Shown here piece by piece: positions 4,225-57,880 of a stretch of DNA of 64,000 nucleotides (positions are counted from its first letter, which is position 1; the number at the start of each line of letters is the position of its first letter). The position numbers and the translations under genes were made by a program. The DNA comes from Corynebacterium vitaeruminis (GTDB lineage: Bacteria; Actinomycetota; Actinomycetes; Mycobacteriales; Mycobacteriaceae). A model generated the notes under the pieces. The model was not told where the DNA came from, made no database searches, and saw only the letters and a list, made by a program, of their open reading frames with translations. Location of the stretch: positions 1-64,000 of the forward strand of contig NZ_JVVM01000022.1 of the NCBI RefSeq assembly GCF_001054325.1, written 5' to 3'.

Positions 4225-5019
4225 CTAAAGATTCTCAATATCGGCCATGCGCGCCAAAATATCGGCGGGCGTGGGATTGCGAATCTCTCCAACTACACGA
4301 CCGTCAGCGAGAAATACCACGCGGTCTGCGTAGGATGCGGCAGTGGCATCATGCGTCACAATGACGACGGTCTGGCCGATGTCATCAACCGCATCGCGGA
4401 GGATTGTCAGCACCTCACGCGACGAATTCGAGTCCAAGTTGCCCGTTGGCTCATCGCCGAAGATGATCTCCGGCCGGCTGACAATGGCGCGTGCACAGGC
4501 GACACGCTGCTGCTGGCCACCGGACAGTTCCGAGGGGCGGTGCGTAAGCCGTTCATTCAGCCCGAGGCGCGTGGTGATTTCCTCAAACCACTGCTTATCC
4601 ACCTTCCGACCAGCGATATTGATAGGCAAGGTGATATTCTCCGCCGCAGTCAACGTCGGCACCAGGTTGAAGGACTGGAACACAAAGCCCAGGCGATCAC
4701 GTCGCAGCGCTGTGATCTCCTTATCCGACAGCTTGGACAGTTCCGTCGTGCCGATGTACGCGCTTCCCGACGTCGCGGAGTCCAAGCCGGCCATGCAGTG
4801 CATCAGAGTCGACTTACCCGACCCGGACGGGCCCATAATCGCGGTGAACTCACCGGCGGCAAAAGAGATATCGACATGGTCCAGTGCGGTAACTGCGGCA
4901 TTGCCGATGCCGTATTTCTTAGTCAGCCCCTCGGCATAGGCAGCTGCCTGCGGGGCGGAGTGCGCAGAAGAAGAACTAGAGGGATTTATAGCGGATGACT
5001 TTGCGTGCTTAGCAGGCAT
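4225..5019 (-). CDS. ABC transporter ATP-binding protein (LolD/MacB type)
   Basis: A 264-residue nucleotide-binding subunit. Walker A is GPSGSGKST (near residue 64), the signature is LSGGQQQR (near 165), and Walker B IIFGDEPTGNLDS follows with the DEPTGNLD sequence typical of the LolD/MacB/FtsE subfamily; the H-loop lies in IVTHD. The first 27 residues are a Ser/Ala/Lys-rich tail. It is the upstream gene of the operon with the FtsX-type permease, and the two surely work as an exporter pair. Confidence 0.92.
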   Translation of the reverse strand: MPAKHAKSSAINPSSSSSAHSAPQAAAYAEGLTKKYGIGNAAVTALDHVDISFAAGEFTAIMGPSGSGKSTLMHCMAGLDSATSGSAYIGTTELSKLSDKEITALRRDRLGFVFQSFNLVPTLTAAENITLPINIAGRKVDKQWFEEITTRLGLNERLTHRPSELSGGQQQRVACARAIVSRPEIIFGDEPTGNLDSNSSREVLTILRDAVDDIGQTVVIVTHDATAASYADRVVFLADGRVVGEIRNPTPADILARMADIENL

Positions 5020-52969: not shown

Positions 52970-53908
52970 GTGTCGCGTAAGAAAAGCCAAACCGAGATTC
53001 TCCAGCAGGGGACTGGGCAGGTTCCCCAACAAGGGCCATTGCTGCAGGGTGTGAACAGGTTTCTCACCCTGCCGGTGGCGCCCGTAATTCTGGTCCTCAT
53101 CGGTTCTCTTGGCACCCAGACCGCGGCCGTGCTGGTCACGGACATGCTTTCCACGGTCGGCGCGCCGGGCATATCGGGCCTTCGTATGAGCGCCGCGGCC
53201 ATCATCATGGTGGTCCTGTTCCGCCCGAAGCTGTCCGGAATGACCCGCGCCCGCGCCATCAACATCGTGGTCTACGGCGTCGCCATGGGCATGATGAGCA
53301 TGATGGTGTACGCAGCCATCGCCCGCCTCCCGCAGGGCGTTGCCGTCACCATCGACTTCCTCGGCCCCTGTGTCGTGTCCTTCCTGGGGCTGAAAATGTG
53401 GCGCTCTCGCCTGTGGGCCATCGTCGCTTTCATCGGCGTCGCTCTGATTGCCCAGCCCTCCAATGACCTGGACCCTGTCGGCATTGGTTACGCCGCAATC
53501 GGCGCGATCTTCTTCGGCGCTTACACGCTCTTTTCCGCTCGAATGGGCAGTTCGGAGGGCGGTGGCATGCCGGACCTGGCGCTGTCAGTGGTCGTCGCAG
53601 CAATTGTGCTCGCGCCCTTCTCAGTTTCCGCCGCACCGCTTGTCGACGGTTCGATGTGGGCCACCATCGTTATTTCTGGGTTCATTGGCGCTGTCATTCC
53701 CTACGTGATGGACACCATCGCTGCGGGGATTGTCTCAGCAGCGGTCGTCGGCACGCTCTTTGCACTGGACCCGGTCATCGGTGCAATCCTGGGTTGGGCG
53801 TTTTCCGGTGACCGAGTGACCTGGTCTATGGCGCTGGGCATCGTGTTGATTGCGGCGGCTGGCGCGATTATTACCTGGCGCGGGGCGCGGGAGTCGCGTG
53901 TTCGGTAA
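52970..53908 (+). CDS. EamA/RhtA-type metabolite exporter
   Basis: A 312-residue DMT-superfamily transporter with about ten hydrophobic helices in two EamA halves (about residues 35-165 and 170-305). Similar RhtA-like proteins export amino acids. Polar N-terminus of about 30 residues. GTG start at 52970, 37 bp after glf. After its stop, at 53921, the first of two direct repeats begins. Confidence 0.85.
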   Translation: MSRKKSQTEILQQGTGQVPQQGPLLQGVNRFLTLPVAPVILVLIGSLGTQTAAVLVTDMLSTVGAPGISGLRMSAAAIIMVVLFRPKLSGMTRARAINIVVYGVAMGMMSMMVYAAIARLPQGVAVTIDFLGPCVVSFLGLKMWRSRLWAIVAFIGVALIAQPSNDLDPVGIGYAAIGAIFFGAYTLFSARMGSSEGGGMPDLALSVVVAAIVLAPFSVSAAPLVDGSMWATIVISGFIGAVIPYVMDTIAAGIVSAAVVGTLFALDPVIGAILGWAFSGDRVTWSMALGIVLIAAAGAIITWRGARESRVR

Positions 53909-53920
53909 TTAATTACGTGC

Positions 53921-54035
53921 ACGGTCGAGTAATAAACAACTTCAAACAACTCGAAACAACTATCCGGACCTGCATTGATGTGCTGATTTTGGGCGAGTTT
54001 TGCAGCGAGTTGTTACAGAGTTGTTTGAAACAACT
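53921..54035. repeat. direct repeat copy 1 with AAACAACT boxes
   Basis: A 115-bp copy about 90% identical to 55777-55890 (10 mismatches and one gap by my count). AAACAACT lies at 53934, 53944 and 53954, exactly 10 bp apart. AGTTGTT is inverted at 54008 and 54019, AAACAACT is at 54028, and a further copy just outside is at 54039. Confidence 0.92.
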
Positions 54036-54051
54036 GTAAAACAACTTTTGG

Positions 54052-54057
54052 TAAACT
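54052..54057 (+). promoter_or_regulatory. probable -10 of Schlafen-type gene
   Basis: TAAACT lies 6 bp before the ATG at 54064 and there is no ribosome-binding site, which suggests a leaderless transcript. The last AAACAACT box ends 5 bp upstream, so a bound regulator would block the promoter. Confidence 0.5.
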
Positions 54058-54063
54058 GGGACC

Positions 54064-55776
54064 ATGCTCGATTCGGCGTTTGAGGTTGTAGAGGAAGCAC
54101 TGTCGGCGATTGAGACCGGAGACAGCGCCGGCAGTTGGGAATCCCAGGTATTGGATTTCAAAGAAGACCCTGCTGTCCATCCAAAGAGCAAGAATCCCGA
54201 TGCAGGGTTAGTGGAATTTCTTGTCGACGAGGTTATTTGTTTTTCCAACGCTGACGGTGGTGTTTCCTACATTGTCCTCGGTGTTAATGACAAGCAATCG
54301 GGGCCCGCTGCGTTCACTGGAACTGATCGCTCATGTGATTGGTTGGTGGAAAAGATTTACAGCAAGACGCAGCCTCATATCCAAGTTGAAGCTTTTGAAA
54401 TTGAGCGCTGCGGTAAGCGCCTGATTGCCTTGCGCATTCCGCGGGGGATGGCGCTGTATCAGCGCTCTAAAGGTCAAGCAAGTAAACGTGTCGGTAAAAG
54501 TTGTGAGCCTTTGGGGGAGGACGAGCGCCGTCGCATTCACCTCTCCCGTTCGAACCCGGACCTAAGCGCTACTGTTTCGCGACGGGGGACTGAAGATTTC
54601 GACTCTCAAGCTATTGAGCAGGCTAAAAACCTTCTTGCCAACCGGAAGCATGCTTTGGGTGACGGCTCGCCCGTGCCTCAGACAGGTCTTGAGCTTTGTA
54701 GTGAGTTGGGATTGCTTACGGCCGACGGTGGGCTAACATTTGCGGCGGAAATCCTCTTCATGCAGCCACTTCATAACCGTACGGTAGTGCGGCATCTTCT
54801 CCGCAACGTGCCGAGTGGAGATCCAAAAGTAACTGAGATTTCTGCACCATTGATTACCGCCTCTGAGCAGCTACGTGTGTTGATTAAGGCTCACACATCG
54901 CAAGAAATTGCGCGAGTGCAACTTCCGAATGGGCAAGAATTTCCTATTCCGGCGTTTCCAGCGACCGCGGTAGACGAAATTATTTCCAATGCATTCGCTC
55001 ACCGTGATTGGGGAGCAACCACGGCAATCGTCGTTGACCAGTCCCCGACCAGCCTAACTGTGTGGTCTCCGGGTGGTCTCCCCGTAGGAGTGCCGGAAGA
55101 GAGGATTCTGACTACCCAATCGATTCCACGCAACCCGATTCTGATGGGTGCATTGCGGCAGTTGGGGCTTGCTGAAGAATCTTCACGCGGCTTTGACCGT
55201 ATGTGGGTTTCTATGCTCGCTAGTGGCAGGCAAGCCCCCAGTTTGAATGCTGATGGGCCGTTTGTTGAGGTCATGTTGCCTGCCGGAAACGTAGATTCGG
55301 GTTTTATAAAGTCGCTGTTTCTGTTGCGCGCCGAATTCGGAGAGGCGATTTTCAACAGTGTGAATGGACTCTTGGTGGCACGTCATCTAGCCAATAACCA
55401 GATTCTAATGACATCCACGGCCGCTCGACTCATGCAAGTTTCGGAAGCGCAGGCCCAAGAAACCTTGGGATGGTATGCAAACCAGGGCTTCCTGGAACCA
55501 TTGAGAGATGCCCCGGAATGGATACTGTCCGCCCGAGCTCGAGCGGCCTTTGAAGAAAAAGATTCCACAGCGATTGCAGCCGTGACGACAGAGGACTGGA
55601 TTATTGCTCAGCTGCGCGAAGGACAGTCCTTAAACGCTCGTGAAGTTGCAAGTGAACTAGGCGTAGAGCGTGAGTCAGTGAGCCGCATTCTTCGCCACCT
55701 CCGGGATTTGGGCAAAGCGAAAATTGCCGACGGCAGTCCAACGCGAGGCCCGAGTGTCCGTTGGGTTTCTGCGTAG
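54064..55776 (+). CDS. Schlafen/AlbA_2-domain ATP-binding regulator (RecG-like C-terminus)
   Basis: A 570-residue protein. Residues about 25-165 are an AlbA_2/Schlafen-type domain: QVLDFKED, then FLVDEVICFSNADGGVSYIVLGV, and IPRGMALYQRSKGQASKRVG. Residues about 300-400 look like a HATPase_c_4-type fold: AVDEIISNAFAHRDWGATTA, then TVWSPGGLPVGVPEER, NPILMGALRQLG and ESSRGFDRMW. Residues about 520-560 form a winged helix (LNAREVASELGVERESVSRILRHLR). Such proteins are annotated as ATP-binding transcriptional regulators. It is flanked by two direct repeats, so self-regulation and mobility are plausible. No partner gene is seen. Confidence 0.88.
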   Translation: MLDSAFEVVEEALSAIETGDSAGSWESQVLDFKEDPAVHPKSKNPDAGLVEFLVDEVICFSNADGGVSYIVLGVNDKQSGPAAFTGTDRSCDWLVEKIYSKTQPHIQVEAFEIERCGKRLIALRIPRGMALYQRSKGQASKRVGKSCEPLGEDERRRIHLSRSNPDLSATVSRRGTEDFDSQAIEQAKNLLANRKHALGDGSPVPQTGLELCSELGLLTADGGLTFAAEILFMQPLHNRTVVRHLLRNVPSGDPKVTEISAPLITASEQLRVLIKAHTSQEIARVQLPNGQEFPIPAFPATAVDEIISNAFAHRDWGATTAIVVDQSPTSLTVWSPGGLPVGVPEERILTTQSIPRNPILMGALRQLGLAEESSRGFDRMWVSMLASGRQAPSLNADGPFVEVMLPAGNVDSGFIKSLFLLRAEFGEAIFNSVNGLLVARHLANNQILMTSTAARLMQVSEAQAQETLGWYANQGFLEPLRDAPEWILSARARAAFEEKDSTAIAAVTTEDWIIAQLREGQSLNAREVASELGVERESVSRILRHLRDLGKAKIADGSPTRGPSVRWVSA

Positions 55777-55890
55777 ACGGTCGAGTAATAAACAACTTCA
55801 AACAACTCCAAACAACTTTCTTGCCTGCATTGATGCACTGATTTTGGGCGAATTTTGCAGCGAGTTGTTTAGGAGTTGTTTGAAACAACT
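55777..55890. repeat. direct repeat copy 2 with AAACAACT boxes
   Basis: A 114-bp copy beginning on the base after the TAG of the regulator gene. AAACAACT lies at 55790, 55800 and 55810, AGTTGTTT is inverted at 55863 and 55874, and AAACAACT is at 55883. The palindrome TAGGAGTTGTTT-G-AAACAACTCCTA (55870-55894) is perfect over 12-bp arms. The flanking genes are convergent, so it has no obvious promoter to serve. Confidence 0.92.
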
Positions 55891-55905: not shown

Positions 55906-57880
55906 TTATTCAGCCGCGTCCACGAACGTCGATACGAGGTATCGGTTGATGTCGGAACGGTTGATGATTCCCACAACCGTGCCGTCATCAGCGACGACAG
56001 GAGCCTTCTTCAGGTGCTTATCCGCGAGCACCGAAGAGATGTGCCCAAGGTCGTCGTGGACATTCACCGTGATTACCGGCTTGGTGGCAATGGAGGAAAT
56101 CGGGCGGTTAAGCACCTCGGCGACATCAGTTCCAAACTCCGCCGAATCGTTGTGCGCCAACAGTGCGTACGGAGTCGTGAATGCGGGAACGGAGTCGCCA
56201 ATCACATCCAGCACGTCGCCGTCCGAGACAAAACCCGCCAGCTTACGGCTGTCTTTCAGTAGCGGTACGCCGGAAATTCGCTTATCGACGAACATGTGGA
56301 GCCCCTGACGAATCGTGTTATTCGGTAACAAGAAGTAGATGTCTTCCTGCATCAGCTTGGCAACCAAAGAATCGGATGCCAAGGAAGTAGCCTCCTGGTT
56401 GCTGGTCTCTGCGGCGGTGCCTGCGACATTGTTGGACACCTTCGCGCGGGTGCCGGTCCAGCCAAGAACCACGGCGATTGCTGCCAGCACGAAGAGGACT
56501 GCGCCAACGACGAGGAAGCCGCGATTCGCGGCATTGGCAGAGTCGGCAGCCCCGGCGCCAGAAGCCACGAACGCGCCGTAGATGCCGGTTGAGAGCGCGG
56601 TACCGACACAGCCCGCCACCTGGAATGACGTGGAGAAAATAGTGACACCGTGCGGATTCAACGAGCGGGGGAGTGCGGACAAGGAGAAAGACTGCACTGG
56701 CCCGATAGCGAGAGCCGAACCCAGGATGGCGGGCATATACAGCAGGGTAATAAGCCACAGGGTGTCTTGGCCCATTGCCCACGCGGTGGTCAGCGAGAAT
56801 ATGGCCATCAACAGCATGCCGAGTGGCAGGATGATTTTCGCGCCCTTGGAGTCATAAATCTTGCCTGCAACTGGGCCGAAAATGACTGCCAACAGAATTG
56901 CTGGGAACAACACGAGGGAAGCCTGCAGGCCAGTAGCTCCCTGAATCGACTGCAGGTGCATCGGAACCAGGATGTTCATGGAGAAGACGATGATCAGCGC
57001 GATGACATTAATGATCACGCCCGCAGTGAACGGGAAAACGCTGAGCGGCTTAAGGTTGACCAGCGGGTCATCGATGGAATTCTGGCGCTTCACAAAGAGC
57101 GTAAGCGTCGCGATGCCGATGACCAGCGAAACGACAGCCACCAGCTTTGCGGGGCTGAAGATAGTGGAAATGCCGTAGAGTAGGCCGAGCAGCGCGATAG
57201 CCACCAAGGTCACGGAAGGCACATCAAGAGTTGCCTTGACGTTCTCAGAGATGTTGTACGCGGTGGTCATGCCGATGATGAACACAAATCACCGCCAGAA
57301 TGGTGAACGCCCAGCACAGGGCGCGCCACGACGAAAACTCCAGAATCATACCGGAAGCCAAGATAGCGATCGACGGGCCCAGCGTCGTCATAGCGCCCAT
57401 GAGTCCCATGAAGGTACCCAACCTCGGGCGCGGAGCCACGGTCAGAACAATCATCATGCCAATCGGCACGAGCAGGCCAGTACCTACGGACTGGATGACG
57501 CGTCCGATAAGGAGCACCGCGAAATTGGGTGCGGTAGCGGTGATGATGCCACCGATGATCCACGTCGAGGTCGTTATTAAGTACAGGGGTTTCGTCGTAA
57601 AGCGACGGATGAAGAACCCGGCGGTCGGCGTCATCACAGCTGCGCCCAATATATAAGCCGTGGCCAGCCACTGAACGGCAGAAACGCCAATGTTGAAGTC
57701 GGCCATGATCCGGGTGAAGCCGACGTTGAGGAAAGTTTCGTTGAAAGTAGCGATAAAAGCAGCCAGCGCGGCCGCAAACATAATAGTCAGCGACCTACTT
57801 TCTACAGTAGGTGCAGCTGGAGTGGCAGGTGCTGTAGGCGCTGTAGACGCATCAGAGCGCGCCGAAGGAGACGTAGCCAT
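55906..57880 (-). pseudogene. MFS drug-type transporter fused to CBS pair, frameshifted
   Basis: Two adjacent frames make one protein of about 656 residues. 57880-57286 encodes the first five helices (FNETFLNVGFTRIMADFNIG, then AYILGAAVMTPTAGFFIRRF) of a DHA2-type MFS transporter. 57285-55906 encodes the remaining helices and a C-terminal pair of CBS domains (LVAKLMQEDIYFLLPNNTIRQ onward, then VITVNVHDDLGHISSVLADK). On the minus strand ATTTGTG appears where ATTGTG would join A-V-I to V-F-I-I. An extra T at about 57286-57288 therefore breaks the frame. ATG 57880 has AGAGAGG. Fusion of MFS to CBS is itself uncommon. The break is either a real mutation or a sequencing error. Confidence 0.8.

Follow-up and report, generated by a model that had tools for sequence, protein, structure and literature searches.

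A candidate one-gene mobile cassette in Corynebacterium: a Schlafen-type gene between box-built direct repeats

The window, i.e., the 64,000-nt stretch of Corynebacterium vitaeruminis DNA analyzed here (assembly GCF_001054325.1, contig NZ_JVVM01000022.1, positions 1-64,000, forward strand), contains a gene for a Schlafen-type protein lying between two direct repeats of about 115 bp. Based on sequence comparison, we propose, with a probability of roughly two in three, that the gene belongs to a minimal mobile one-gene cassette, probably anti-phage, whose protein would bind both repeats, and that recombination between the repeats leaves a solo repeat. The unit would be one gene plus one repeat, and the integrated form would be repeat-gene-repeat. 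Genomes in the comparison carry G labels and loci carry L labels. The named loci with proteins 83-92% identical to the window protein are from Corynebacterium.

The two repeat copies, U (left, upstream) and D (right, downstream), are 90% identical over 115 columns in direct orientation, with an alignment score of 173 versus no more than 26 in 20 shuffles. Their start-to-start distance, i.e., gene plus one repeat, is 1,855-1,856 bp. D lies between convergent genes, facing a transporter gene, and U runs toward the putative promoter of the cassette gene. In all this the initial annotation, made from the letters of the stretch, was accurate: it had described two direct repeats of about 115 bp and about 90% identity around one gene, a right copy starting on the base after the stop codon between convergent genes, and a 1.86-kb unit of gene plus repeat. 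The features are as follows, with boxes and cores read from the sequence.

53921-54035, + strand: left (upstream) repeat U, from sequence alignment; the match to the repeat profile R1 covers 53934-54044
53935-53941, 53945-53951 and 53955-53961, + strand: U boxes AACAACT
53967-53973, + strand: U core GACCTGC
54008-54014 and 54019-54025, + strand: U inverted boxes AGTTGTT
54029-54035, + strand: U last box AACAACT, which closes a palindrome
54040-54046, + strand: extra AACAACT box just inside the left repeat
54052-54057, + strand: candidate -10 element TAAACT, 7 bp before the start codon, picked by eye
54064-55776, + strand: cassette gene, 570 aa, with Schlafen AlbA_2, GHKL-type HATPase_c_4 and C-terminal winged-helix domains
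55774-55776, + strand: stop codon TAG of the cassette gene
55777-55890, + strand: right (downstream) repeat D, starting on the base after the stop codon, from sequence alignment and profile
55791-55797, 55801-55807 and 55811-55817, + strand: D boxes AACAACT
55823-55828, + strand: D core GCCTGC
55863-55869 and 55874-55880, + strand: D inverted boxes AGTTGTT
55884-55890, + strand: D last box AACAACT

Along the repeat, three AACAACT boxes at 10-bp intervals are followed by a core, then by roughly 35 bp of spacer, and finally by inverted AGTTGTT boxes, which end in a palindrome. In the window genome (2,488,175 bases, 35 contigs), the next best match to the repeat covers 28 of 136 query bases; dispersal of the repeat through this genome is ruled out, as there are two full copies only.

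The cassette gene or a relative occurs in 69 of 242 Corynebacterium genomes (E ≤ 1e-30). Sixty fetched stretches, the window and 10 named loci gave a set of 71, of which 70 were scorable; L145, cut by a contig end, was dropped. Each locus was scored for a direct repeat between the DNA upstream and the DNA downstream of the gene, with a threshold score of 55, and the second gene copy in L134 was left out. An own repeat pair is present at 39 of the 70 loci, hereafter called boxed. L142 was removed from an original 40, as its repeat (score 265) lies away from the ends of the gene. L044 and L049 duplicate the contigs of L105 and L115; all four are unboxed, which leaves 39 boxed among 68 distinct loci. 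As a control, this geometry was placed at 588 other positions within these loci; 10 of the placements reach 55, and all 10 come from four loci. That pairs recur at this rate argues for a cassette and rules out a chance origin of the pairs. An assembly artefact, for which we found nothing beyond the draft state of the window genome, is likewise extremely improbable, since many boxed loci sit in single-contig genomes.

The repeats of boxed loci are 92-194 columns long and 72-100% identical. At the 37 boxed loci with an intact open reading frame (ORF), the median distance from the end of the upstream copy to the start codon is 18 bp (range -206 to 130), and that from the stop to the start of the downstream copy is 0 bp (range -27 to 324). 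TANNNT, a loose pattern counted without a chance control, lies between repeat end and start codon at 34 of the 37. The 39 boxed loci represent 20 neighbourhoods, counted from "either flank" groups, in Corynebacterium plus two Actinomyces loci (L050 and L051, repeats 93% and 92% identical). The same repeat, which the initial annotation proposed to look for elsewhere, thus recurs with the gene at many places.

Of 39 more distant loci, 37 were scorable and 2 (L067 and L080) reach 55. An order-level search gave matches in 10 of 298 genomes, the window's own included, the nine others being 31-33% identical. The plasmid collection gave one record at 31% identity (limit E ≤ 1e-20), and the phage collection gave two at 26 and 30% (limit E ≤ 1e-10); carriage by known plasmids or phages is unsupported in these collections. 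At L043, from a metagenome-assembled genome labelled Actinomycetaceae, the cassette gene is 69% identical to the window's and groups with the window clade, reflecting either transfer between families or a misbinned contig. Two or three tandem repeat copies lie upstream of cassette genes having no downstream copy at L141 (G113:C17:73378-73698), L111, L105, L115 and L117. At L186 (G016:C2:2703782-2705541), the place of the cassette gene between two repeats is taken by a transposase-like ORF (by eye, of IS3 type).

Recurrence at many sites also bears on where the repeats come from. Nobusato et al. in 2000 and Furuta et al. in 2010 reportedly described insertion of restriction-modification genes with long target duplication. 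Such insertions are treated in PMC3031569 and PMC4978471. The likeness is that a gene of defence type lies between long direct repeats and that a mobility gene is absent; the difference is that their repeat is duplicated target, whereas the cassette repeat is part of the element, carries family-specific boxes and moves with the gene. One could suppose that our gene moved by such target duplication, or by unrelated transfer of larger segments, the repeats being by-products. Pieces of the transporter gene do travel or remain with the cassette in several genomes. However, at unrelated sites the gene comes with a repeat built of family-specific boxes, which is hence not target-derived, and we regard this account as very unlikely. 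Target duplication as the source of the repeats is ruled out by the same box-built repeat occurring with the gene at 20 neighbourhoods. Five alleles at the site next to glf, described below, have no match to the repeat profile and are not, strictly, recent pre-insertion sites.

The second line of evidence is alleles in which the gene is missing. The genes flanking the cassette in the window are as follows.

52970-53908, + strand: left neighbour, EamA-family gene (Pfam), whose 3' side forms the left flank of the filled and solo alleles here
55906-57880, - strand: right neighbour, a transporter of the major facilitator superfamily (MFS) with CBS domains, in two overlapping reading frames (Pfam, ORFs)

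Both overlapping ORFs of the MFS/CBS gene match parts of MFS_1, with a frameshift near 57250-57285 that is real or an assembly error. Strands of neighbouring genes assigned from the longest ORF, an approach that gave a wrong result for the EamA side of the window, play no part in the comparisons.

At the window's site, five relatives have one repeat and no gene. In G187 the order is EamA side, one repeat, MFS/CBS side, with gapless alignment across both outer flanks of the filled G224 allele; G146 and G067 have the same order. In G153 and G080, one repeat lies between a glf-side flank and an MFS/CBS remnant. In a tree of EamA DNA, G187 groups with G224 (98/99), G146 with G154 (100/100), and G067 with G159 (100/99), each of these three solo-repeat species being sister to a species with the gene. 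The members of the pairs are not all intact: G154 has the gene and upstream repeat but only 19 matched bp downstream, the cassette gene of G159 is split, and in G067 the EamA gene is broken (alignment row of 513 bases). The empty site foreseen by the initial annotation, i.e., EamA gene, one repeat and MFS gene, exists in three relatives, and two more have a single repeat beside an MFS/CBS remnant. The opposite outcome it named, the pair at the same site in every relative with no empty site, is false. Its suggestion that the cassette is gained or lost by recombination is supported insofar as the predicted single-repeat alleles exist; excision, gain, a circle and an enzyme are what we infer from them.

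Solo repeats were also sought with R1, a sequence profile from 27 repeats, which matches 72 of the 242 genomes (E ≤ 0.01). Among 24 candidate solo loci fetched, 22 have an R1 match spanning 80 or more of the 113 positions; for 21 of the 22, the fetched stretch has no similarity to the gene (E ≤ 1e-3). Six of the 21 had been used in building R1, and four of the 21 (L196, L197, L198 and L204) are weak, at E 2.5e-7 to 1e-5. Repeat-free alleles occur as well. Both flanks of the G062 cassette, at the glf site, are 124-186 bp apart in G053, G096, G117, G100 and G061, with no R1 match and no trace of the gene. At this same intergenic spot, G141 (L210) has a gene with a weak, partial match to PD-T4-5 (E 7e-7, 26.7 bits), and G155 (L212) an AAA ATPase gene, so that the spot takes other genes too.

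The L137 junction is less simple. Ten relatives lack the repeat there, judged by eye (R1 does not model that box type); G092, G117 and G080 are without the repeat and have a related cassette 3 to 20 kb away, and G100 (L216) retains one repeat and the gene's 3' end, i.e., a decayed cassette. In G039 (L185), the cassette has likewise decayed in place. L107, with 100% identical repeats, has no simple empty counterpart, related genomes differing there by other DNA. A separate dispersed repeat lies at L137:8948-9003, where a stretch of about 40 bp (query 4948-5011) matches many places in many related genomes. That single-repeat and repeat-free alleles exist at the window's site, together with the 21 of 24 solo candidates, is a second argument for the cassette.

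The third concerns the boxes themselves. The repeats are arrays of 7-bp boxes one helical turn apart: same-strand neighbouring boxes no more than 12 bp apart have a spacing of 10-11 bp in 123 of 133 cases. Change was counted in four independent close pairs, each scored in both directions, replacing an earlier count that used 17 overlapping pairs. Exact box positions changed in 5 of 315 cases upstream and 5 of 287 downstream (1.7%), as against 119 of 609 and 141 of 609 spacer positions (23%). A mere duplicate copy should not keep its boxes, and the comparison indicates that the downstream boxes are kept by selection. The initial annotation's view of the repeats as cassette ends is supported, with the amendment that they are not passive, since both copies carry conserved box arrays. 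This conservation, with the 10-11 bp spacing, is a further point for the cassette.

Box types differ by subfamily, and include AACAACT, AAAGATATA, AACAATT, AAGAACT and TCGAAACT. The two copies of one locus mostly share a box type, with mixed cases such as L128, L137 and L140. Loci with AAAGATATA or AACAATT boxes fall mostly in one clade, in which the winged helix has an EAG motif; this association is a single event and gives no independent support for recognition. Apart from the cassette, L225:4200-4950 (in its own genome C6, about 287100-287870), and also L003, has an array of different short palindromes with a repeated spacer unit like GTGCGCGCGTGGGGCTTAC. One palindrome of the L225 array, AGTTGTTTCAAACAACT, is the box palindrome of the cassette repeat, and the array lies beside phage- or satellite-like ORFs, named by eye; it is perhaps a set of operator decoys.

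Exchange of the gene is suggested by a fourth comparison. Among G188, G092, G062 and G002, the gene DNA is 99.1-99.3% identical, versus 82.8-95.9% for the left 3-kb flank and 90.6-97.1%, over 297-2875 bp, for the right flank. For G062 and G033, the gene is 93.1% and the left flank 78.3% identical. That the gene is more alike than its flanks in the group of four favours the cassette reading. The likeness of the two repeats was examined by asking whether both within-locus repeat identities exceed the between-locus upstream value, in pairs that are not independent. They do so in 22 of 24 pairs at 80-90% protein identity, 15 of 15 at 60-80%, 499 of 542 at 40-60%, and 60 of 64 at 20-40%.

Several observations weigh against a mobile cassette. 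The window gene is no more alike than its left flank when compared with G112 and G224 (gene 77.1 and 75.9%, left flank 79.0 and 80.1%), so that the gene-over-flank signal is confined to the recent group. Above 90% protein identity, within-locus likeness is the greater in just 7 of 21 pairs; thus, repeat pairs are not quickly homogenised, and their copies become or stay alike only on a time scale exceeding that of the closest species splits. The downstream boxes could be preserved in part by gene conversion from the upstream copy, an account tempered by the divergence of the spacers of the two copies. Thirty-one of the 70 loci are unboxed, and ten of these have, by box counts, at least 4 AACAACT boxes upstream and 0 or 1 downstream; since only the upstream array persists at these loci, the gene can be retained without a downstream copy. 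In G005, G006 and G083, the window's closest relatives, the EamA gene is followed directly by an esterase gene, with neither cassette nor MFS/CBS gene, indicating that larger blocks move or are lost too. Finally, the EamA trees compare different species rather than strains and leave the direction, loss or gain, unfixed; the material is one genome per species, with no reads, and it shows neither a circle nor a read across a junction, nor a recent insertion whose target ends are legible.

Some of these points lend something to a view without mobility, in which the arrays are paired operators, acting by DNA looping or as a roadblock at the gene end and kept alike by gene conversion, and solo repeats are operators of other genes or relics of decay. 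The conserved downstream boxes, the unboxed loci with an upstream array (at least 10), the likeness of repeats over long time scales, and the several cassettes visibly decayed in place all fit it. Against it stand the 20 neighbourhoods, the clean single-repeat alleles with both outer flanks intact, and the gene more alike than its flanks in one group. We consider it unlikely.

We turn to the protein, whose middle and N-terminal domains support the initial annotation's description of an AlbA_2/HATPase-like/winged-helix protein. SLFN_AlbA_2 (PF04326) matches residues 26-150 (E 9e-15, 55.7 bits versus a cut-off of 25.3), and HATPase_c_4 matches residues 328-405 above the Pfam cut-off. The winged helix, residues 513-563, is recognized from several helix-turn-helix (HTH) matches, all below cut-off, together with predicted structure. 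An AlphaFold2 model built with 42 sequences has a mean predicted local distance difference test score of 89.8. The folds matched are the N-domains of SLFN11, SLFN13, SLFN5 and SAMD9, histidine-kinase ATPase domains in the middle, and winged helices at the C-terminus. Among 42 aligned proteins, E26 is conserved in 41, D/E31 in 42 and D76 in 40; these residues may be the counterparts of the three-acid nuclease site of SLFN13. The winged helix also fits a Z-alpha fold (Z 9.8 over 57 residues), a likeness common to winged helices. Position 540 is T, S, G or R and position 544 mostly R, presumably differing from the Asn and Tyr by which Z-alpha contacts Z-DNA.

From the family, i.e., Schlafen fold, conserved acidic residues and GHKL-type ATPase, the cargo is probably an anti-phage defence nuclease. 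PADLOC gave only weak matches, to Argonaute-associated models. The label "regulator" given to the gene is probably incomplete, as acidic residues of the Schlafen type are retained and proteins of this kind have been reported as defence effectors. PMC12839542 reports a linkage, in at least 1017 taxa, between bacteriophage exclusion (BREX) loci and Schlafen RNases with a minimal histidine kinase and winged HTH; for bacterial Schlafens in defence against phages it refers to a preprint. As described there, these RNases have the same domain order as the cassette protein; they adjoin BREX core genes, whereas the cassette gene stands alone between repeats.

The best structural and sequence match is DIP2311 of Corynebacterium diphtheriae (PDB 3LMM; Foldseek E 3.9e-34, phmmer E 4e-33), the fit giving Z 31.2 over 454 residues with a root-mean-square deviation of 15.5 (whole-chain 15-16 Å), so that the domain arrangement is unsure. 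Its identity to the window protein is about 25%. DIP2311-like_C (PF22168) and DUF5635 (PF18685) are absent from the window protein among the 25 best of 26 families at E up to 1; by these models it is a relative and not a DIP2311-like protein. PMC8780604 describes the function of DIP2311 as unknown.

Eighteen further loci were scored, 11 at 25-31% identity to the window protein (the sister group, to which DIP2311 belongs) and 7 at 35-44%. None of the seven reaches 55. In the sister group, 4 of 11 do so with the same geometry (L229, L230, L233 and, barely at 56, L241), three more (L228, L234 and L203) beat all 20 of their own shuffles, and four do not. L200, one of the 14 of 18 below 55, has boxes downstream only. 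The sister-group repeat is built of other boxes, of CTAATCT type, and at L229, L230 and L233 the stop codon lies within the first box. The L229 and L230 proteins have DIP2311-like_C, DUF5635, SLFN_AlbA_2 and HATPase_c_4 (Pfam). The same geometry with other boxes is a fifth argument for the cassette.

How would such a cassette move? The initial annotation had noted that no transposase or integrase is present and that it could name no fitting insertion-sequence design. The scans agree on the first point: no such family has a Pfam match in the nine window ORFs scanned (47.3-61.6 kb), and the cassette gene has no transposase family above cut-off, no recombinase family match, and sub-threshold HTH similarity only. 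A bolder idea is that the Schlafen protein is itself the recombinase, assembling on both box arrays, with the ATPase as a gate and the nuclease cutting near a GAnCTG core, without help from the host. The cassette would then represent a self-mobilising element of a new class: a single protein, acting as defence nuclease, autoregulator and recombinase, would bind terminal direct repeats of about 115 bp built from its own operators and excise or insert the gene that encodes it, and two or more families (AACAACT-type and DIP2311-type) would have evolved different ends on a common plan. Consistent with this, no gene besides the cassette gene is common to the 20 neighbourhoods within 1.5 kb, the boxes at both ends and the three acidic residues are conserved, and the plan is common to two diverged families. 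Of 78 repeats, 45 contain a core-like motif (at least 10 of 14 matches), all on the same strand, versus 6% of shuffles; for 12 of these 45, the best match is an additional copy at the right end. On the other side, we know of no Schlafen protein acting as a DNA recombinase, and loss between repeats of about 115 bp needs no dedicated enzyme. In the second family, the core appears in 5 of 14 repeats, on the other strand, versus 10% of shuffles, and is only suggestive; target ends and duplications are unreadable at the L137 and glf sites, where the flanks of available relatives are too diverged. We therefore hold self-recombination, and the new class with it, to be possible but doubtful, host recombination over about 115 bp being the economical choice.

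In the mechanism we prefer, the left copy of the repeat would serve as the gene's operator array, and both copies as ends of the unit. The cassette protein would bind boxes in both copies through its winged helix; binding at the left copy would set the gene's own expression, and the downstream boxes would owe their conservation to a need to hold the two ends together. The gene and one repeat would be lost when the direct repeats recombine, giving the solo repeat that is seen. Through recombination across the repeats, a cassette from a different strain or species would enter at a solo repeat or at a resident cassette. Host homologous recombination would suffice for loss and for gain at a solo repeat, and does not cover first entry into a repeat-free site.

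Known elements, some of them as analogies, offer partial likenesses. Long terminal repeat elements have terminal direct repeats that hold the promoter region, and their loss leaves a solo repeat; the cassette differs in being one bacterial gene without a reverse transcriptase or integrase domain. Integron cassettes and Xer-dif modules are units of one gene and one recombination site; the cassette differs in having no dedicated integrase gene beside it in the window and a site that is an operator-like array of about 115 bp. From insertion sequences and transposons it differs in its lack of a transposase family above cut-off and its direct rather than inverted ends, and from integrative elements with a tyrosine or serine recombinase in being one gene without a recombinase family match. 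Literature searches, mostly outside subscription papers and bioRxiv, found no paper joining Corynebacterium, Schlafen and direct repeats, and an earlier description is possible; with the same coverage, and judged from titles and the opening of abstracts, no paper matched a single-gene or defence cassette flanked by direct repeats.

If the proposal holds, a gene that is probably anti-phage travels in a unit smaller than 2 kb without a dedicated mobility gene, its operator doubling as its end, and the case would show how single defence genes spread and get lost. The filled, solo and repeat-free alleles at one site form a comparative system in which end boxes may be matched to the DNA-binding domain, and which makes testable whether a Schlafen-GHKL protein can act on DNA ends.
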